From: Desulfobacteraceae bacterium | Lineage (GTDB): Bacteria; Desulfobacterota; Desulfobacteria; Desulfobacterales; Desulfosarcinaceae | NCBI GenBank assembly: GCA_013003715.1 | Contig: JABDIN010000027.1 | Location: 1-64,000 of the forward strand | Direction of reading: 5' to 3' | Length of the DNA stretch: 64,000 bases | Shown here: piece by piece, positions 2,334 through 14,302 of the stretch | How positions within the stretch are numbered: position 1 is the first letter of the stretch | How the letters are laid out: each line of letters starts with the position of its first letter | Translations under genes and position numbers: made by a program | Notes under the pieces: model-generated | What the model was told of the DNA's origin: nothing | The model's input: only the letters and a program-made list of their open reading frames with translations | Database searches by the model: none

Positions 2334-2747
2334 TTCGATACAGTCTATATTATCCGAATCTCAATAGCCCATCCGGTTCAGCGCGTCATTCCAGATGCCG
2401 TAAGCTCTTTCGACCAGACCGCTGATTGGATCATTATTCACGCCGTGTCCTTCCCGGACCATAACCCGCAGCCCCCACCGTAGGCACTAGTGCCCATAGG
2501 GAAATCCGCACTTATGCGAATATACAAATAAGTCGTGATGTTGATAAAAAGAATACGCACGAAGGAAAGTCTTTTCATTTCCTTTTTTTTATATGCCTCG
2601 CATGAACCATTGTTCAATTGTTCATGGTCGGAGCAGGACGGAATAGACGGCAAGAATGTGTCAGGACATCGGTCATAACATCGACATGCAATCGATGCAG
2701 CAGCCGGTTTTGTTGCCTAAATGTTAATTTCAACCTTTGGAGAGCTT
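2334..2747. other. Intergenic region with one doubtful small reading frame
   Basis: About 410 bp separate the kinase from the metal permease. On the minus strand, 2361-2462 encodes a 33-residue peptide ending GIWNDALNRMGY that looks coding-like. A GTG at 2441 is preceded by GGAAGGACA and would give 26 residues. It could be a micro-protein or the tail of a decayed gene. Nothing else was recognised, and no terminator hairpin was seen after the kinase. Confidence 0.3.
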
Positions 2748-4103
2748 ATGGGTGATATCACTTTATCGCAAATCGCAGATGCTATGATTCGATTTGTGGA
2801 ATCCTGCTGGGAAATGCTTGTGGAAATGGCGCCGTACATGTGTCTCGGGTTTTTTATGGCCGGATTATTACACATTTTCGTCAATCCCAGAATGATCATA
2901 AAATATCTTGGAAAGGGACGCATCAAATCCGTCTTTTATGCTGCCATTCTGGGGATTCCCCTCCCCTTGTGCTCCTGCGGAGTTCTGCCGACGGTAGCCG
3001 GTCTCAAACGCCAGGGTGCAAATGATGGTGCTTCCATGTCATTTATGATCGCCACACCTGAAACCGGTGCAGATTCCATTGCGGTCACCTATGCCCTTCT
3101 GGATCCGCTGATGACCATTTTCCGCCCGGTGGCGGCCTTTTTTACAGCGGTGGTGGCAGGATTAACCCAGAATTTTGTCGGAAAGACATATGATGAGAGT
3201 GAAAAAAACATCCAGTTGGATTTATCCTGCAAAATCGATAACTGCTGCGATGGTATCAATTGCCCGCCGGAAAAACACCGGCATCATCATACCCTTTGGG
3301 AAAAACTCAAGGCTTGCCTGCGATTCGGATTCGGAGAGATACTCGATGACATCTCCAAATGGCTGGTACTGGGTATTGCCATTGCCGGGGCCATCAACAT
3401 CATGGTCCCTGAAAGTTTCATGAGAACCTACCTGGACGGTGGTGTGCATTCCATGCTGATCATGCTGGTGGTCGGTATCCCCTTTTATATTTGTGCCACG
3501 TCTTCAACCCCCATCGCCGCCGCCCTGATTTTGAAGGGCGTCAGTCCGGGAGCGGCACTGGTCTTTCTGCTGGCCGGGCCCGCCACCAACGCAGCGACAA
3601 TCTCCGTCGTATACGGTCTTTTTAAAAAAAGAGCCGCCATCATTTACTTAAGCAGCATTGCCGTATGCGCCATTCTCATGGGATTGCTGCTGGATAAGGT
3701 TTATGCCGGTTTCAACATCTCGGCATCTTCGGTTGCCGGCACGGCAGGCGAGATCATCCCCCACTGGATAGCGGCTATCACGGCGGTGATTCTTCTGGTC
3801 TTGATCATCAACAGCTATGTAAAACAAATTCGGAATAAACGTGCCGGCATTGTCGGGTGCGGCTGCGGCCATGAAAACAATACACTGGAAGCATCCCCTG
3901 CTTCGGCATGTGGATGCGGTCATGACCATCCCAAACCGGTGGTGGATATCAAACCAATGGCAAGTGCCTGCGGGTGCGGACACGATCACAGCCCTCTTCT
4001 GGTACCGGACAATCCTGATGCCGGCACCTGCGACATGGAGGGGGAACATGGCCATGCACACAAAAATGAACCCGGACATTGCGGGTGCGGACACAAGCAT
4101 TAG
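2748..4103 (+). CDS. SO_0444-family Cu/Zn efflux permease with Cys/His-rich tail
   Basis: A polytopic permease of the DUF318/ArsP-like superfamily, closest in layout to the SO_0444-type Cu/Zn exporters. The first half has the conserved GIPLPLCSCGVLP segment and the second half has the matching GIPFYICATSSTPIAA segment, as in a duplicated permease. A cytoplasmic loop between the halves carries a Cys/His cluster (CKIDNCCDGINC then HRHHH). The C-terminal ~80 residues hold four CGCGH motifs plus further His and Cys, suited to soft-metal binding. The ATG at 2748 is chosen because GGAGAG sits just upstream; an ATG at 2721 would add nine residues. Predicted inner-membrane metal export; the exact metal is inferred. 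Confidence 0.88.
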   Translation: MGDITLSQIADAMIRFVESCWEMLVEMAPYMCLGFFMAGLLHIFVNPRMIIKYLGKGRIKSVFYAAILGIPLPLCSCGVLPTVAGLKRQGANDGASMSFMIATPETGADSIAVTYALLDPLMTIFRPVAAFFTAVVAGLTQNFVGKTYDESEKNIQLDLSCKIDNCCDGINCPPEKHRHHHTLWEKLKACLRFGFGEILDDISKWLVLGIAIAGAINIMVPESFMRTYLDGGVHSMLIMLVVGIPFYICATSSTPIAAALILKGVSPGAALVFLLAGPATNAATISVVYGLFKKRAAIIYLSSIAVCAILMGLLLDKVYAGFNISASSVAGTAGEIIPHWIAAITAVILLVLIINSYVKQIRNKRAGIVGCGCGHENNTLEASPASACGCGHDHPKPVVDIKPMASACGCGHDHSPLLVPDNPDAGTCDMEGEHGHAHKNEPGHCGCGHKH

Positions 4104-4278
4104 TCCAGGTATTGGAATCAATCATTGAAACATTGTTAAAAAACAGGCAGACATGACGAGGGGAGGTGATATCGGGAGTTGATGATGATTTGACCCTGCT
4201 GCGGTGACGATGCCAATGTTATTCTCATCGCGGCGATCCCTAAAGAATAAGGAAAGTCTTACATTCATGGAGGCAGGT

Positions 4279-5988
4279 ATGAAAACCAACAAATTCGCAT
4301 TCCTAATCTCGACAATTCTGATCACCTCATTGTTGCTCCCCCTTCCGGCGGTATCGGTGGATGCGGCTGACAAAAAGTCTCGGTTCTTCGATGTCACCCT
4401 CATGACCCCCATCGGCAACGTGGCCCGGGAGAAGGCCGGGCAGATTATCGCCAGGGATCTTGAAAAAATCGGTATCGGTGTAAATCTGCGTTACATGGAG
4501 TTTGCGACCCTGGCCAATCACTGGAAATCCGGCGGTGCCAACGGGACCCTGTTCGATGATGGCGGCTTCGATATGCTGATTCTCCAGACCTCCATGTTTG
4601 CCACCATCGATCCCGTAGGATTCTACAGGGCTTTTGCCAGCGACCAATTCCCTAAATCGGGCAAAAACTACACACGGTATATCAATCCCGAATTCGACAA
4701 ATACGCATACAAGGCATTGGTTACCGTTGACGATCAGGAGCGTTGGAACCTGGTTCAGGAAGCGGAGAAATTAATTTACAATGATCTGCCGACCATTCCG
4801 CTCTGGCATCCCGCCTATTTTCATGGCGTACGATCTGATGTAAAGTTCCCGGAATATAAGGATCCTGAAGATTGGTGGGCCTACTCCTTCAGGTGGGCAA
4901 AACGCGAGATAAAGGGAAAAACCAAAAAAGATATGACCCTTCGGGAGCGTACGCTCATCTATGCACAGCCATCGGATCTGGATGCATTCATTCCGGGATA
5001 CCGGGCTAGCGGATACAGCCTATTTGCCACCGGATACACCGTGTTTGACAGCCTTATTCACCAAACCGATGCCCCTTATTTCAGAGGTCCGAAGGAACAA
5101 CGCGGCCCTCAACCCGCGCTTGCTGAAAACTGGGATGTATCCATAGACGGCAAGATCTGGACTATGAATTTGAGAAAAAAAGCCACCTGGCATGACGGCA
5201 CACCTTTTACCGCGGATGATGTCATTTTCACCTACGACCTTATTGTAAACAAGGATGCGCTATACGAGTCCGAAGCGTTTATAAAAGAAGTCGGGATAAC
5301 CTGGAAAAAAATCGACAAGTATACGGTGGAGTTCACGTCCGAAAAATACAATCCCCTCTTTTCCAGTGAATTTCTGACACGCCATATCCTTCCCAAACAC
5401 CTGTTTTCCAAGGTACCTCCCCAGGACCTGATGAAATCCGACTACAACACGGGTAAAAAAGTCGTCGGCAACGGACCATGGGTATTTGATGAGTACAAAC
5501 CCGCGGAATATTTAAAACTCAAGGCCAATGACAATTACTATGGCGGACGCCCGGAATTCGATTACCTGATCGTCAAATTCATCCCCCAGGCCGCATCGGC
5601 CTGGTATGCATTGAAAACAGGCGACATCGATGTGACGAACCATATGTATGGGTTCAGCCGGGAATTGGATGACGCCAATTCAGATCCCAATATCTATGCG
5701 GTTATCGATCCCTTGACGGCCATACAGAATATCCAGATCAATGCTGAACACCCGATTCTGAGTAACATCTGGGTGAGAAGAGCCATCAGCCTGGCCAGCA
5801 ACCGCGACGTCATGGTAAAGGTTATCAGCAACGGGCTGGGCGTGGCGGCCCAACAACACCTCCCGCCATGGAGTCCTGGATTCGCTCCGGATCTTGAACC
5901 GATGGCGTATGACCTTAATGAGGCCAAGAAAATGATGGTCAAAGCGGGATATAACTATGACGACGTCACCATAAAAGGACCCAAATAA
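4279..5988 (+). CDS. Family 5 (peptide/nickel type) ABC substrate-binding protein, apparently circularly permuted
   Basis: A secreted solute receptor for the transporter that follows. Residues 1-29 form a signal peptide (LLLPLPAVSVDA). The order of family 5 blocks is rotated. Residues about 36-215 match the usual C-terminal lobe (LMTPIGNVAREKAGQIIARD, GKNYTRYINPEFD, DLPTIPLWHP). Residues about 219-569 then match the usual N-terminal and central part: ERTLIYAQPSDLDAF, LAENWDVSIDGKIW at 281-294, DGTPFTADDVIFTYD, GNGPWVF, and finally AYDLNEAKKMMVKAGY at the very end, a block normally followed by the LMTP segment. Total length (569) equals one ordinary receptor, so no segment is duplicated. The start at 4279 follows GGAGGCAGGT; a longer frame from 4204 lacks this. 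Confidence 0.9.
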   Translation: MKTNKFAFLISTILITSLLLPLPAVSVDAADKKSRFFDVTLMTPIGNVAREKAGQIIARDLEKIGIGVNLRYMEFATLANHWKSGGANGTLFDDGGFDMLILQTSMFATIDPVGFYRAFASDQFPKSGKNYTRYINPEFDKYAYKALVTVDDQERWNLVQEAEKLIYNDLPTIPLWHPAYFHGVRSDVKFPEYKDPEDWWAYSFRWAKREIKGKTKKDMTLRERTLIYAQPSDLDAFIPGYRASGYSLFATGYTVFDSLIHQTDAPYFRGPKEQRGPQPALAENWDVSIDGKIWTMNLRKKATWHDGTPFTADDVIFTYDLIVNKDALYESEAFIKEVGITWKKIDKYTVEFTSEKYNPLFSSEFLTRHILPKHLFSKVPPQDLMKSDYNTGKKVVGNGPWVFDEYKPAEYLKLKANDNYYGGRPEFDYLIVKFIPQAASAWYALKTGDIDVTNHMYGFSRELDDANSDPNIYAVIDPLTAIQNIQINAEHPILSNIWVRRAISLASNRDVMVKVISNGLGVAAQQHLPPWSPGFAPDLEPMAYDLNEAKKMMVKAGYNYDDVTIKGPK

Positions 5989-6035: not shown

Positions 6036-6138
6036 ATTATCATTTGTGCCGATCTGATACTCGAGTCATCGGGGTCGTTTGGTTCTCATTCAACCTTTCT
6101 CCATAATTTCATCCATATGCGGTGTCGGGAAAACATAT

Positions 6139-7179
6139 ATGCGTTCTGATAATATTCTCCTCGACGTTAAACATCTGAAAAAATATTTCCCCATACGCAA
6201 GGGCCTGTTGCAACGAATTCAGAGCCATGTCAAGGCCGTTGATGATATTAACTTTTTTATCAAGCAGGGAGAAACCCTGGGTCTCGTGGGGGAAAGCGGA
6301 TGCGGGAAAACGACAACCGGCCGGACGATTCTCCGGTTGGAAGACCCGACGGCGGGCGAGATTATCTTCAGGAGGAAAAATCCGTCCATCACCGACAACG
6401 GCTGCCAGGAGATCGATATCGCCAAGGCGTCTCAGGCAGCATTGAAAGACCTGCGGCGGGATGCACAGCTGATATTCCAGGATCCCTATTCCTCACTGAA
6501 TCCCCGGATGACGGTGAAAGACATTGTCGGAGAGCCTTTACTTGTTAACAAAGAATCCAAAGATGCGGATCTTGAAGACCGGGTCCTCAAACTGATGAAG
6601 GCCGTGGGTCTCAAATCCGATCACATGAAACGCTATCCCCACGAGTTCTCAGGCGGTCAGCGCCAGCGCATCGGCATCGCCCGCGCGTTGGCGCTGGAAC
6701 CTCAGCTGATCGTGGCTGACGAGCCGGTGTCGGCGCTGGATGTTTCCATACAGGCACAAGTCGTCAACCTTTTGCAGGAAATCCAGGCACAATTCAGCCT
6801 AACCTACCTGTTCATCGCCCATGACCTGAGTGTGGTTAAATATATCAGTGACCGGGTGGCCGTGATGTACCTGGGAAAGATCGTGGAATTGGCGGAGACC
6901 GAAGCGTTGTTTTCAGACCCCCGGCATCCATATACCGAGGCCTTGATATCGGCGGTACCAATACCGGACCCCGATTATAAATGCAGCCGGATCATCCTCA
7001 AAGGGGACGTTCCGAGCCCCATGAAACCACCTTCGGGCTGCTATTTCCATCCACGCTGCCAGCATGCGAAAAAGGAGTGCAGTCGTTTGTCTCCGGAATA
7101 CAAGGAAATCGAACCCGGGCATTATGTATCGTGCCATTTCGCCGATACCGTCCGGCTCCAGGCTGTTTGCCTGAGTTAG
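6139..7179 (+). CDS. Oligopeptide/dipeptide ABC transporter ATPase, OppF/DppF type
   Basis: A cytoplasmic nucleotide-binding subunit of the peptide-type importer. It has Walker [17 protein letters not shown]-loop [15 protein letters not shown], signature [15 protein letters not shown], Walker [15 protein letters not shown] and the H-loop FIAHDLSVV. The C-terminal extension carries [10 protein letters not shown] and later cysteines, the oligopeptide-type C-terminal domain that in relatives binds an iron-sulfur cluster. The ATG at 6139 gives the usual N-terminus ([12 protein letters not shown]); a TTG at 6079 in frame is possible but unlikely. Ribosome-binding match is weak. Together with the genes at 7293, 8321 and 9243 it forms a complete importer. 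Confidence 0.92.
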
Positions 7180-7292: not shown

Positions 7293-8276
7293 TTGGGGTT
7301 AACAACGTATATCATACGAAGGATCGCGGTGGCCATTCCCACCTTTTTCGGCATCACCCTGATCATTTTCGTACTCATTCAAATGGCGCCCGGTGATATC
7401 ATCGATTTCTATACATCAGCCAATCCGGACGTAATCGAAGATGCGGAACAAATGGAAAAGCTGAAGGAGCGGCTTGGGCTGGGCCAACCGATTCCCATAC
7501 AGTATTTCAAATGGGTCAGTCGGCTTATCGTTTTTGATTTCGGCCATTCGTTTGAAACACACCGCAAGATATCCGAGGAGCTCAAGGCACGATTGGGGGC
7601 AACCACGGCCCTGTTCCTGTTCAGCCACTTGATCGGCTGGCCCATTGCCATTGCCATCGGCATCCTGTCGGCGATTAAACCCAATTCCGTATATGATCAC
7701 TTCGGCAGAGCCTTTGCGCTGGTGGGTATTGCCATGCCGGCGTTCTGGATCGGTTTGATGTTGATTCTCGTATTCGGCGTTAAATTGAGATGGTTTCCAT
7801 TGGGTGGCTCTGTATCCTCCAGTATTGAGTATACCGGCATATTTACGATGATGTGGGATCACGCCTGGCATCTGGTTCTCCCATCGGTAACCATCGCCCT
7901 GAGGAGTATCGCCACCACCATGCGTATGACAAGGGCGGAGATGCTGGAGGTTCTGAAAAAGGACTACATCATTACCGCCAGGGCAAAAGGGGTGGCTGAA
8001 AACGTTATCCGTATCAAGCATGCGCTCAGAAACTCCTTGATGTCTGTTGTAACGCTGATAGGGCTGAGCATGGGATATGTATTCTCGGGTGCCGTCCTGA
8101 CCGAAACGGTATTTGGCTGGCCCGGCATCGGCAGGTATATGGTTCATGCCGTTAATGTGAGAGATTATCCCGCAGTCATGGCCGTTGCGGTCCTGATTTC
8201 CATGATGGTTTTATTGGCCAACCTGATTACGGATATAACGTATTGCTGGATTAACCCAAGAATACGCTATGATTAA
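7293..8276 (+). CDS. ABC transporter permease, DppB/OppB type
   Basis: An inner-membrane permease subunit of 327 residues. It begins with the family hallmark IIRRIAVAIPTFFGITLIIFVLIQ, gives six predicted membrane spans, and has the extracytoplasmic loop with MAPGDIIDFY and RLGLGQPIPIQYF. The EAA-type coupling segment is ITARAKGVAENVIRIKHALR, followed by VFGWPGIGRYM. The start is TTG at 7293, supported by CTGGAGGTAA ten bases upstream; no better ATG exists. It pairs with the DppC-type subunit at 8321. Confidence 0.93.
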   Translation: MGLTTYIIRRIAVAIPTFFGITLIIFVLIQMAPGDIIDFYTSANPDVIEDAEQMEKLKERLGLGQPIPIQYFKWVSRLIVFDFGHSFETHRKISEELKARLGATTALFLFSHLIGWPIAIAIGILSAIKPNSVYDHFGRAFALVGIAMPAFWIGLMLILVFGVKLRWFPLGGSVSSSIEYTGIFTMMWDHAWHLVLPSVTIALRSIATTMRMTRAEMLEVLKKDYIITARAKGVAENVIRIKHALRNSLMSVVTLIGLSMGYVFSGAVLTETVFGWPGIGRYMVHAVNVRDYPAVMAVAVLISMMVLLANLITDITYCWINPRIRYD

Positions 8277-8320: not shown

Positions 8321-9160
8321 ATGGCTGCCGCAAGTTCCCGCAGTATTAAAAGACGTCTTTTAGCAAGCAAACTTTCCATATTCGGGCTACTGATTGTCTT
8401 GATATTGGTAATCACCGGTGTGTTTGCCCCATATCTGGCACCCTACGATCCGAATGAAATGATGTTTGAATATGTATATCATTCGCCGTCACAGGATTTT
8501 TTACTCGGTACTGATGCATTGGGACGCGATGTCTTGAGCAGGGTGGTATGGGGAGCGCGTACCTCCTTGTTCGTCGGCATCGGTGCTACCGTCGTTGCCC
8601 TGCTGGTCGGCGTCACTTTTGGTGGCTTGGCCGGTTTTTATGGTAAGATTACTTCTCAGGTGTTCATGCGTCTTGCCGATGTCCAATTGTCCATCCCCAG
8701 CCTGATACTCCTGATTGTCGCCGCCGCGGTGCTCGGTGAAAGGAATATGCCGGTCATCGTGGCCATCATCGGCATCACCATGTGGCCCACCCTTGGTCGG
8801 GTCACCCGAAGCAAAGTCCTGGATCTCAAAACAAGGGACTATGTGGAAGCCGCGAAGATTGCCGGTGCCAGCAATACCCGCATTCTGTGGCGCCATATTA
8901 TGCCCAACGGTCTCGGTCCCATAACCGTTATCGCCACCTTGGATATCGGGTCGGCCATTATTATGGAATCCAGTCTCAGTTTTCTGGGACTCGGTGATCC
9001 CCGCATGATTTCATGGGGCAACATGCTTTCCACCGGGCTGCAGGATATGATTCCGGCACCCTGGATGGCTGTATTTCCCGGATTCGCGATTTTTTTCACG
9101 GTGTGGGGATTGAACATGTTCGGTGATGCGCTGCGGGATGCACTGGATGTCGAAGCCTGA
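8321..9160 (+). CDS. ABC transporter permease, DppC/OppC type
   Basis: The second permease subunit, 279 residues. The N-terminal cytoplasmic stretch (SIKRRLLASKLSIFGLLIV) leads into the first span. The conserved loop LLGTDALGRDVLSRVVWGAR is the hallmark of this subunit. The EAA loop is YVEAAKIAGASNTRILWRHI, and the C-terminus has SSLSFLGLGDPRMISWGNML. The gene follows the DppB-type gene by 44 bp, with GGAGAAG before the ATG, so it is co-transcribed. It forms the heterodimeric channel with the 7293 product. Confidence 0.94.
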   Translation: MAAASSRSIKRRLLASKLSIFGLLIVLILVITGVFAPYLAPYDPNEMMFEYVYHSPSQDFLLGTDALGRDVLSRVVWGARTSLFVGIGATVVALLVGVTFGGLAGFYGKITSQVFMRLADVQLSIPSLILLIVAAAVLGERNMPVIVAIIGITMWPTLGRVTRSKVLDLKTRDYVEAAKIAGASNTRILWRHIMPNGLGPITVIATLDIGSAIIMESSLSFLGLGDPRMISWGNMLSTGLQDMIPAPWMAVFPGFAIFFTVWGLNMFGDALRDALDVEA

Positions 9161-9242: not shown

Positions 9243-10247
9243 ATGTCCCTCATTGAAGTGAAAAATCTCAGAACCTATTTCGACACCTGGACCGGTACGG
9301 TCCGGGCGGTGGATAGTATCGATTTTACCATAGAGAGGGAAAAGACCCTTGGGGTTGTGGGTGAGAGCGGCTGCGGCAAATCCGTTACCGCAAGAACCAT
9401 CATGAACATCATTCCCATGCCGCCGGGCAGAATACAATCCGGTGAAATCTGGTTTCATGGAAACGGCGGCAAGATCGATCTTACCCGTCTCGGCCCCAAC
9501 AGCGACGACATGCGGACCATACGCGGTAACGAAATCGCCATGATCTTCCAGGAGCCCATGACGTCTTTGAATCCCGCGTATACCATCGGCAATCAGATCG
9601 TGGAAGCCATCATGCTGCACCAGGACCTGACCAAAAAAGAGGCTGCCCATAAGACCGTGGATATGCTCCGTGCCGTGGGGATATCGTCGCCCCGGCAGCG
9701 CAGCAGGGAATATCCCCATCAATTGTCCGGCGGCATGCGCCAGCGGGCCATGATTGCCATGGCGCTCTCGTGTAACCCGTCACTGCTTATCGCCGATGAA
9801 CCCACCACCGCGCTGGATGTGACCATACAGGCGCAGGTACTGGATCTGATGAACCGGTTACGGGAAGAATACCGGACATCAATCATGTTCATTACCCATG
9901 ATCTCGGGGTAATTGCCGAAATGGCGGACGACGTCATGGTAATGTATCTGGGCCGTGTAGTGGAAAGGGCTCCGGTGAGGGATCTGTTTCACAATCCGTT
10001 GCATCCGTATACCCGTGGACTATTGAATTCCATACCATCATTGACGGCCCGGCGGACCGACAAGCTGGTTCCCATCACCGGTACCGTACCCGATCCATTC
10101 GATGTCCCCATGGGATGCGGTTTTCAACCGAGGTGCCACCAGTCAAAGAAGAGCTGTAAGACAAACGCGCCCGGCTTGAAGAGTGTCGGCAATGGTCATC
10201 AGGTGGCTTGCTTTTCCGCCCAAACGGCCGCAACCGGCCAGGCATAG
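9243..10247 (+). CDS. Oligopeptide/dipeptide ABC transporter ATPase, OppD/DppD type
   Basis: The second ATPase, 334 residues. It has Walker A GESGCGKSVTARTIM, Q-loop MIFQEPMTSLNPAYT, signature LSGGMRQRAMIAMAL, Walker B LLIADEPTTALDVT and H-loop FITHDLGVIAEM. The C-terminal GCGFQPRCHQSKKSC cysteines match the oligopeptide-type extension. The start ATG at 9243 is preceded by TAGGAGTAGACG. Gene order here is receptor, F, B, C, D, a rearranged version of the common receptor-B-C-D-F order. Substrate (peptide, nickel or other) cannot be decided from sequence alone. Confidence 0.94.
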   Translation: MSLIEVKNLRTYFDTWTGTVRAVDSIDFTIEREKTLGVVGESGCGKSVTARTIMNIIPMPPGRIQSGEIWFHGNGGKIDLTRLGPNSDDMRTIRGNEIAMIFQEPMTSLNPAYTIGNQIVEAIMLHQDLTKKEAAHKTVDMLRAVGISSPRQRSREYPHQLSGGMRQRAMIAMALSCNPSLLIADEPTTALDVTIQAQVLDLMNRLREEYRTSIMFITHDLGVIAEMADDVMVMYLGRVVERAPVRDLFHNPLHPYTRGLLNSIPSLTARRTDKLVPITGTVPDPFDVPMGCGFQPRCHQSKKSCKTNAPGLKSVGNGHQVACFSAQTAATGQA

Positions 10248-11919: not shown

Positions 11920-12330
11920 ATGGAAATCGTACACTATACAAGCTGTGAAGATGTAAAAATAGATCAATTCCCGTATCGGGGCAAGATGCACGATGTCATC
12001 GGCACCAGTATCCGCTGGTTGTCCAAATATGGCGACGACGGCACCGGCTATCCGGATTACGGACTGCGCTTTTTCACCATCCAGCCCGGGGGGCAAATCC
12101 CGATTCACAGTCATTTTTATCATCAGACCATGTACATCCTGACCGGAAACCTGGAATGCTATGCCTATAACGCCGAGTCGGATGAACTGCAAAACACGAC
12201 GAAATGCGGACCGGGTTCATCCATATTCGCACCGAGCATGGAACCCCACGGGATGAAAAACATCGGAGAGGAACCCGTGACATTTCTTTGCTGCATCTGC
12301 AATGTTTACGACAAAGAGGATAGCCTATAA
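11920..12330 (+). CDS. Single-domain cupin protein
   Basis: A 136-residue cytoplasmic protein with a single cupin fold. Motif 1 is GGQIPIHSHFYHQTMYILTG, giving two His and a further His. The second motif lies in FAPSMEPHGMKNIGEEP, giving the last metal His. Such proteins bind a divalent metal and act as small-molecule sensors, isomerases or dioxygenases; the substrate is not evident. It ends 14 bp before the aminotransferase start, with AGGAGAATC between, so both are in one transcript and may act on the same amino- or keto-acid. Start ATG follows AACGGAGGCAAACC. Confidence 0.85.
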   Translation: MEIVHYTSCEDVKIDQFPYRGKMHDVIGTSIRWLSKYGDDGTGYPDYGLRFFTIQPGGQIPIHSHFYHQTMYILTGNLECYAYNAESDELQNTTKCGPGSSIFAPSMEPHGMKNIGEEPVTFLCCICNVYDKEDSL

Positions 12331-12344
12331 TCCGGAGGAGAATC

Positions 12345-13514
12345 ATGAAAACAGCTGATCGCTTGAACAACTTTGACGCCTATCTCGGCACGGCCATGAA
12401 TCTCATCCTGACCAAAATGAGAGCGGAAGGCAAAGATGTCATCAATCTGGGTCTTGGTGATCCGGATGTCATGCCGACCAAAATGATGCGGGAAACGCTT
12501 GCGGATGCATGCATGGACCCAGGTAATCATCACTATCCCAGCTTCTATTCGCCCATGCCCTTGAAGGAAGCAATGGCCGCATGGTACAAGAAAAACTACA
12601 ATGTCACCTGCGATTCGGATACCGAAGTGTTGCCGCTATTGGGGTCTGCTGATGGCTTGTTCCATATCCATACCTGTCTGTTGGACCCCGGCGACATTGC
12701 ATTGGTGCCGGACCCTTGCTATCCCGCATATGTAGCAGGCGTCACTATCGCCGGTGGTAAAATAGAGACACTGCCGCTTCTGGAGAAAAATGGGTTCCTG
12801 CCCGATCTGGAAGCCATTGAGCCGGCGATCGCCGAACGGGCGAAAATGATCTGGGTAAACTACCCGAACAATCCGACTTCCGCCCATGCACCGGATGATT
12901 TTTATCCGCGGCTGATCGAATGGGCGCACAAATACAATGTGGCGGTCATCTCCGACAACCCTTATTCCGAAATTTGTTTCGATTGTTATCGTCCGCAATC
13001 TTTCCTCCAGTTTGATGGTGCCAAGGAGATCGGTATCGAATTCAATTCGTTGTCCAAGGCATATAACTCCTGCGGATGGCGAACCGGGATGGTCCTGGGC
13101 AACCCCGATATCATCGCCGGCATGGCCAAGATCAAATCACACTCGGACCGGGGTATGTTCTACCCGCTTCAAGTGGCGGCCAGGGAGGCACTCGAAGGCC
13201 CCACTGAATTCATGGCGGAACGGAACCGTATGTTTCAGGACCGCCGGGATGTCGTGGTCAATGCCCTCGAAAAGATGGATATCAAGCTGTACCGGCCCAA
13301 GGCGACCTTTTATGTCTGGGCGCGGGTTCCGGAAGGTGTGGAGATTTCAAAAGACTGGTGTTTCAAGGTGCTCGATGAAATCGCCGTATGGATGATCCCC
13401 GGTTCCATGTACGGTCAATACGGTGAGGGATTTTTTCGTATTGCACTGACGCATCCCACGGACCGGCTGGCCGAAGCAATGAATCGTTTAGGCAATTTTC
13501 TCACGGGAAGCTGA
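12345..13514 (+). CDS. Class I/II PLP aminotransferase
   Basis: A 389-residue fold-type I aminotransferase, close in pattern to the LL-diaminopimelate/aspartate aminotransferase branch. Visible are the N-terminal INLGLGDPDVMPTK, the cofactor-ring segment VNYPNNPTSAHAP, SDNPYSEICFD (Asp and Tyr contacting PLP), and the PLP-lysine in EFNSLSKAYNSCGWRTG. The C-terminal substrate Arg lies in GFFRIALTHP. It transfers an amino group between an amino acid and a 2-keto acid in the cytoplasm. The upstream cupin and downstream GntR regulator suggest a small dedicated catabolic or biosynthetic unit; exact substrates are unknown. Confidence 0.92.
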   Translation: MKTADRLNNFDAYLGTAMNLILTKMRAEGKDVINLGLGDPDVMPTKMMRETLADACMDPGNHHYPSFYSPMPLKEAMAAWYKKNYNVTCDSDTEVLPLLGSADGLFHIHTCLLDPGDIALVPDPCYPAYVAGVTIAGGKIETLPLLEKNGFLPDLEAIEPAIAERAKMIWVNYPNNPTSAHAPDDFYPRLIEWAHKYNVAVISDNPYSEICFDCYRPQSFLQFDGAKEIGIEFNSLSKAYNSCGWRTGMVLGNPDIIAGMAKIKSHSDRGMFYPLQVAAREALEGPTEFMAERNRMFQDRRDVVVNALEKMDIKLYRPKATFYVWARVPEGVEISKDWCFKVLDEIAVWMIPGSMYGQYGEGFFRIALTHPTDRLAEAMNRLGNFLTGS

Positions 13515-13672
13515 CCGGTCGGCAGCCAGGTATTCTAAGGCCATGTGCCTTCGATAAGATGTCGCTAAACCGGTAAACCCCGTCTCAAATCCGGCGATCC
13601 GACATTTTATGAAGGCCCATGGCCATATTTGTTTCGATATATGCACTGGCATCGCCAAAAGGAGTATTTTGT

Positions 13673-14302
13673 ATGAATCCGCTCGCCATCTATGAAGATC
13701 TCAAAGAAAAGATAATCTGGTTGGAGATCAAACCCGGCAGCACGCTGAATCTTGTGGAATTGGCCACCGCCTATAATGTCAGCCGAAATCCCGTGACCAT
13801 CGCGTTGACCCGCCTCGAGGCGGAGGAATGGGTGATACGCACCGGTTCACACTTTGTGGCAAGCCCACTCACCCTCGAACGGGTTCGGGAAATTACCGAA
13901 ATCAGACTCATCATGGAAGTTCAAGCCTGCGTATGGGCCATGCACCGTATTTCCACCGAAGGTATCAAGGAGCTGAAAGAAATCAAGCGAACCATTGCCG
14001 GATATGACTCAGCCACGAAAAATAAAGAGATCATAGCAATGGATGTCCGGTTCCATCGCTTGCTCTACCGTGAAACACAGAACAGCCAACTGGAAAACCT
14101 TCTCAATAGAATGCTCAGCCACTATTTCCGTTTCTGGTTGTCCAGCCCCAATCCCATAAATCTGACATCATTTTTCCAGGATACAATGGAATTGATCCAG
14201 GCCATCGAATCAAAAGATGAGATACGGGTCAAAGCCGCCAGCACCGCACACATAAAATCCTCATTAGATGAAATTATGGGGATTTCCAATGTGAGCGCAT
14301 AG
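13673..14302 (+). CDS. GntR-family transcriptional regulator (FCD type)
   Basis: A 209-residue DNA-binding regulator. The N-terminal winged helix-turn-helix covers about residues 8-70 (LNLVELATAYNVSRNPVTIA, then LEAEEWVIRTGSHFVASPL). The all-helical FCD ligand domain follows, with MDVRFHRLLYRE as a likely metal-binding helix. FadR/FCD regulators usually respond to carboxylic or amino acids. The start at 13673 is preceded by AAAAGGAGTATTTTGT; an in-frame ATG at 13619 would add 18 poorly conserved residues. It probably controls the adjacent cupin/aminotransferase unit or the convergent flavoenzyme; this is inference from position. Confidence 0.9.
   Translation: MNPLAIYEDLKEKIIWLEIKPGSTLNLVELATAYNVSRNPVTIALTRLEAEEWVIRTGSHFVASPLTLERVREITEIRLIMEVQACVWAMHRISTEGIKELKEIKRTIAGYDSATKNKEIIAMDVRFHRLLYRETQNSQLENLLNRMLSHYFRFWLSSPNPINLTSFFQDTMELIQAIESKDEIRVKAASTAHIKSSLDEIMGISNVSA

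Follow-up and report, generated by a model that had tools for sequence, protein, structure and literature searches.

A circularly permuted family 5 solute-binding protein encoded next to a Dpp/Opp-type ABC transporter in a Desulfobacteraceae bacterium

Few kinds of ABC-importer receptor are as numerous as those of family 5 and, to our knowledge, all of these are annotated as if the order of their chains was equal. The window studied here, a stretch of 64,000 nucleotides from a Desulfobacteraceae bacterium, carries at positions 4279–5988 of the forward strand a gene for which an earlier note had claimed that the normal end of such a receptor comes first and the normal start second. Is this order real, does the product still make up one receptor for a transporter, and does it stand alone?

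Gene, operon and order of the blocks

The gene encodes a protein of 569 amino acids which we assign to the family 5 (Cluster C) solute-binding proteins, with a circularly permuted chain, on the basis of its reading frame, its Pfam match, its match to Bacillus subtilis AppA and an AlphaFold2 model. The frame runs unbroken from the ATG at 4279 through a signal peptide to the stop codon at 5986–5988. The ATG was preferred over a GTG at 4204 because a Shine-Dalgarno-like GGAGG, read directly from the forward strand at 4269–4273, stands 5 nt 5′ of it. Judged by eye, residues 1–29 (4279–4365) form a Sec-type signal peptide with cleavage between VDA and AD and without a lipobox; residues 1–31 have a pLDDT of ~40 in the AlphaFold2 model.

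SBP_bac_5 (PF00496) is the only Pfam family matched by the protein at E ≤ 0.001, with 263.4 bits against a curated cut-off of 32.4, and the match is split in two: residues 37–122 correspond to profile positions 288–363 and residues 277–562 to positions 2–282 of 368. The same profile stretches were recovered when the two parts were scanned alone, namely 288–363 with residues 1–223 (E = 3.7e-7) and 2–282 with residues 224–569 (E = 2.1e-70). Since positions 288–363 precede positions 2–282 along the chain, the order is not canonical and the protein was therefore filed as a permuted variant and not as a canonical member. Its best sequence relative in the PDB, AppA (1xoc_A), likewise aligns in two stretches of swapped order, query 276–559 with chain 64–345 and query 30–199 with chain 353–510.

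By sequence and structure comparison, block X (residues 36–210; 4384–4908) represents the C-terminal third of a normal receptor (1dpp_A ~341–504, 1xoc_A ~351–515). Block Y (residues 222–569; 4942–5985), assigned from Pfam and structure comparison, represents the N-terminal two thirds (1dpp_A 1–342) and ends just past an AGY motif. According to the AlphaFold2 model, the two former termini are connected by a linker of residues ~211–222 (4909–4944). The conserved family 5 motifs stand in order within each block. The claimed order is thus borne out far beyond chance by the Pfam and AppA matches, and each part, compared separately with DppA/OppA-type receptors, fell on its expected region. The normal start, previously put at about residue 219, was located by structure comparison near residues 213–224, and the claim that the chain ends where the first block would normally follow agrees with the AGY at residue 558, after which only 11 residues remain. 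Blocks X and Y occur once each and sum to one complete receptor, not two, as the note had also held. The protein therefore satisfies the definition of a circular permutant, in which both parts are present once, swapped, and together give one complete protein.

Directly 3′ of the gene, both permeases and both ATPases of a Dpp/Opp-type transporter are encoded on the forward strand, so that the transporter is indeed complete, as had been proposed. Domain matches identify an OppF/DppF-type ATPase (ABC_tran and oligo_HPY; 6079–7179), a DppB/OppB-type permease (7293–8276), a DppC/OppC-type permease with OppC_N (8321–9160) and an OppD/DppD-type ATPase (ABC_tran and oligo_HPY; 9243–10247). With this linkage to DppB/C/D/F-type genes, the likeliest function of the product is that of the receptor of the downstream importer; its secretion, ligand binding and part in transport are inferred, and there are no biochemical data. 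No NCBIfam equivalog cut-off was reached by the protein, NikA scoring best with 147 of the required 393 bits and DppA reaching 122.5 of 1005. Further 3′ of the transporter, at 11920–14302, lie genes for a cupin, a class I/II aminotransferase and a GntR/FCD regulator, which are possibly linked to the imported substrate. On the other side, at 2721–4103, an ArsP_1-type permease is encoded whose C-terminal tail carries repeated, probably metal-binding CGCGH motifs.

Predicted fold and position of the cut

AlphaFold2 modelled the window protein with a mean pLDDT of 81.7 and a pTM of 0.82. Besides the window protein, the input alignment contained five permutants and, from 35 normal receptors, the N-terminal parts; an earlier version had been dropped because MAFFT aligned fragments of block X from normal receptors with block Y. 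Few permuted rows cover block X, and the placement of X relative to Y was judged from the pTM only. Sequential structure aligners match only residues 213–569 of the model, with residues 1–342 of DppA (1dpp_A) and 17–352 of AppA (Z 24–26), and reach a TM-score of roughly 0.5. Residues 34–220 folded alone gave a pLDDT of 75.7 and a pTM of 0.57, and this partial model matches 341–504 of 1dpp_A and 351–515 of 1xoc_A with Z ~7, which is weak by itself. All 29 Foldseek matches of the block X model at E ≤ 0.001 were family 5 receptors, matched at the expected place. The two blocks tile one receptor exactly and meet near DppA residue 341.

The earlier note had suggested checking for one intact two-lobe fold with the new termini in the hinge region. 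The former stood: the model is one confident fold with complete receptor content, in which the two lobes and the extra domain are all present, as far as a prediction can tell. The latter did not, as the cut lies within domain III, where it separates the AK-x-AGY helix from the strand that comes after it. This assignment uses the domain limits of DppA, whose domain III spans ~261–478, so that a seam at ~341 falls inside it. The modelling hence supports, within its limits, a receptor fold that is intact despite the permutation.

We propose that the short linker, which appears ordered in the model (pLDDT of 94–96 for residues 211–230), would join the former ends of the chain, which both belong to domain I, and that the new termini would have been opened at the site in domain III described above. 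Fold, binding cleft and permease docking would then be like those of a normal receptor, as we infer. We are highly confident that the product serves the downstream Dpp/Opp-type importer as its extracytoplasmic substrate receptor and that this Cluster C receptor has a circularly permuted chain. With DppA, OppA, AppA and NikA of family 5 (Cluster C, PF00496) it shares the sequence blocks, the predicted fold and the neighbouring Dpp/Opp-type permeases and ATPases, whereas it differs from them in the permuted order, the termini within domain III and the joined old termini.

Permuted receptors in other genomes

A single-protein search of genome contigs returned no relative, and among 389 genomes of the same order the query alone was matched at E ≤ 1e-40; a close orthologue is therefore not known. 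No conserved stretch usable for scanning was present in a broad alignment. The first relative was one colinear tblastn match on plasmids, in Neorhizobium, and a search from this permutant then gave Salipiger, Natrinema, Halobacterium, Halobaculum and Nitratireductor. All six plasmid permutants carry early Pfam profile positions in their C-terminal part, the N-terminal parts fall on block X of the window protein in an alignment of all seven permutants, and the genes on the complete plasmids of these six genera adjoin permeases and ATPases. Flavin-dependent monooxygenase genes, annotated as nitrilotriacetate monooxygenase or LLM class, lie 3′ of the permutants of Neorhizobium (L031:5908-9198) and Salipiger (L033:5914-9120) and give a hint to the substrates of these two receptors. 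Nitratireductor sp. OM-1 encodes two different permuted receptors on one plasmid (W02, NZ_CP029209.1, 248577-250136, locus L132).

Open reading frames were classed by which of two profile blocks, X (residues 36–210) or Y (222–559), comes first; 43 of 137 genes had the order X-Y versus 94 with Y-X. A permutant profile search found X-Y genes in Desulfobacterota, Alphaproteobacteria, Bacillota, Chloroflexota, haloarchaea and Thermoproteota. Because scoring was limited to a few candidates in each genome, the counts per taxon are minimum values. Other Desulfobacterota, where the earlier note had suggested looking for the same order, do have it, with permutants in at least 7 of 395 genomes of the phylum. 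They occur in at least 8 of 190 genomes of the class of Neoroseomonas, 5 of 200 of the phylum of the Thermoprotei archaeon L074, 5 of 179 of the phylum of Cytobacillus and 1 of 201 of the phylum of a Caldilineaceae genome; none were found in 185 genomes of the class of Burkholderia, with the same few candidates scored per genome. An eighth profile match in the window's phylum (L046) has the normal order and is not a permutant; it was kept as a control together with the other normal-order candidates L032 (Cytobacillus), L038 (Pararhizobium) and L057. The genome of the window itself has ~30 family 5 loci and contains a second permutant on another contig (G000 contig C98:121910-123481; L048:1498-3117, minus strand), which belongs to a different, larger permutant group. 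It is thus confirmed that the permuted receptor is a member of a widespread group and not a unique case.

Nearly all of the 43 permutants end at most ~50 residues past AGY, the exceptions being one archaeal protein with a C-terminal stalk and membrane anchor and one protein that ends early relative to AGY (L159). The alphaproteobacterial P0002 group stops one or two residues past AGYxY, the large group after AGYxWDxxGRLHYP, and haloarchaeal permutants have up to 40 further residues. Haloarchaeal permutants and several of those in Bacillota have an N-terminal lipobox. Those of Gram-negative bacteria are exported by plain Sec or Tat signals, most of them, including the window protein, with a cleavable signal and without a lipobox; two matches to the lipobox pattern, in L040 and L042, lie inside the hydrophobic signal and look spurious. 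Thermoproteota permutants (L074:5322-7259, L147-L150) possess a hydrophobic anchor past the new C terminus in domain III, preceded in L074 by a Thr/Pro-rich stalk. A normal-order Thermoproteota receptor of the same family, L057, has the same kind of C-terminal anchor, but its stalk and anchor follow domain I. From this we infer that the permutation moves the tether to the opposite lobe where a tether exists, and also that such a shift cannot have been selected for in soluble lineages.

Precedent, origin and meaning

As a precedent, TpMglB-2 (Tp0684) of Treponema pallidum comes closest; it is a natural circularly permuted Cluster B receptor for which its authors proposed the name "Cluster Bc". 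It is a type I sugar receptor permuted in the N lobe, with a fourth hinge crossing; by experiment it still binds glucose and closes, and its family occurs in several other bacteria (PMC4990184). Both cases are natural permutations of ABC-importer receptors, whereas the present group belongs to Cluster C, is cut in domain III and extends to archaea. The window protein has no Cluster B (MglB) homology, PF00496 being its only match at E ≤ 0.001, and cannot be placed in "Cluster Bc". The anchoring hypothesis for TpMglB-2 fails here as a general cause, since most Gram-negative permutants have no lipobox. The earlier note knew of no described natural permutant in family 5, and we found none in the open-licence literature, which is weak evidence of absence, nor any solved chain in permuted order among the 60 best PDB profile-search matches with the permutants; the text of the CIRPIN survey does not mention transporters or periplasmic receptors. 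These receptors form a real and apparently undescribed class.

That the permutant group arose at least once, long ago, is the best explanation of our data, but the number of origins remains open. One ancient origin would be simplest given the shared seam, and, as far as trees of sequences allow, one to three may be considered. Alternatively, the chain may have been permuted two or three times independently at one loop, once in the group of the window, Thermoproteota and alphaproteobacterial P0002 proteins, once in the large group and perhaps once in the archaeal L074. We regard this as a tentative possibility that falls short of being our expectation. In a 92-row alignment of un-permuted sequences (Y then X), the free tree shows three changes of order, yet the tree with all permutants held together was better by 19.8 log units (p-AU 0.81). 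In a 51-row tree, the window protein, P0002, P0003, L099 and the Thermoproteota L147 and L150 form a separate group (support 98/97), the large group has support of 99/98, L074 stands apart and none of 200 bootstrap trees contains a single permutant clade. However, one clade was not rejected there by the AU test either (p 0.35; 0.52 without L074). Similarly, the differing C-terminal ends of the P0002 and large groups favour several events, while the breakpoints of all groups fall within the same short stretch. For the path itself, duplication, fusion and loss is a plausible but untested inference; no Y-X-Y intermediate was seen among the 137 classified genes, a small sample.

The window protein could also be a permuted but decayed copy or one without a transport function, for instance a sensor-only protein, which we consider improbable. 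Its long branch (1.47–1.55 changes per column) and the lack of any near relative among the genomes sampled leave some room for relaxed constraint, but the intact frame, the signal peptide, the family 5 motifs kept in order per block and the complete transporter directly downstream speak for a working receptor. That the order is an artefact of assembly, a chimera of two tandem receptor genes, is hardly credible. The genome is indeed a draft of 115 contigs, and adjacent family 5 receptor genes exist elsewhere (e.g. Y-X pairs in L075 and in L052). However, the frame is uninterrupted between start site and stop, signal peptide included; unrelated organisms share the order and breakpoint in their closed replicons, as does a second gene of this genome; and no residual X or Y fragment adjoins the gene.

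In conclusion, we think it likely that an ancient, undescribed group of Cluster C permutants, for which we suggest "Cluster Cc", spans Bacteria and Archaea, with the tether, in lineages that have one, shifted from domain I to domain III and maybe more than one origin at one loop. Standard annotation misses the permutation, and the plasmid permutants carry only the label ABC transporter substrate-binding protein. A widespread permuted group provides natural pairs with which the dependence of fold, folding path, lobe closure and permease docking on chain order could be tested, and permuted and normal pairs would also allow asking whether the position of the tether matters. The group marks a tolerated cut site that designers of biosensors could use and, if it had more than one origin at this loop, the loop would be a natural hot spot of permutation.
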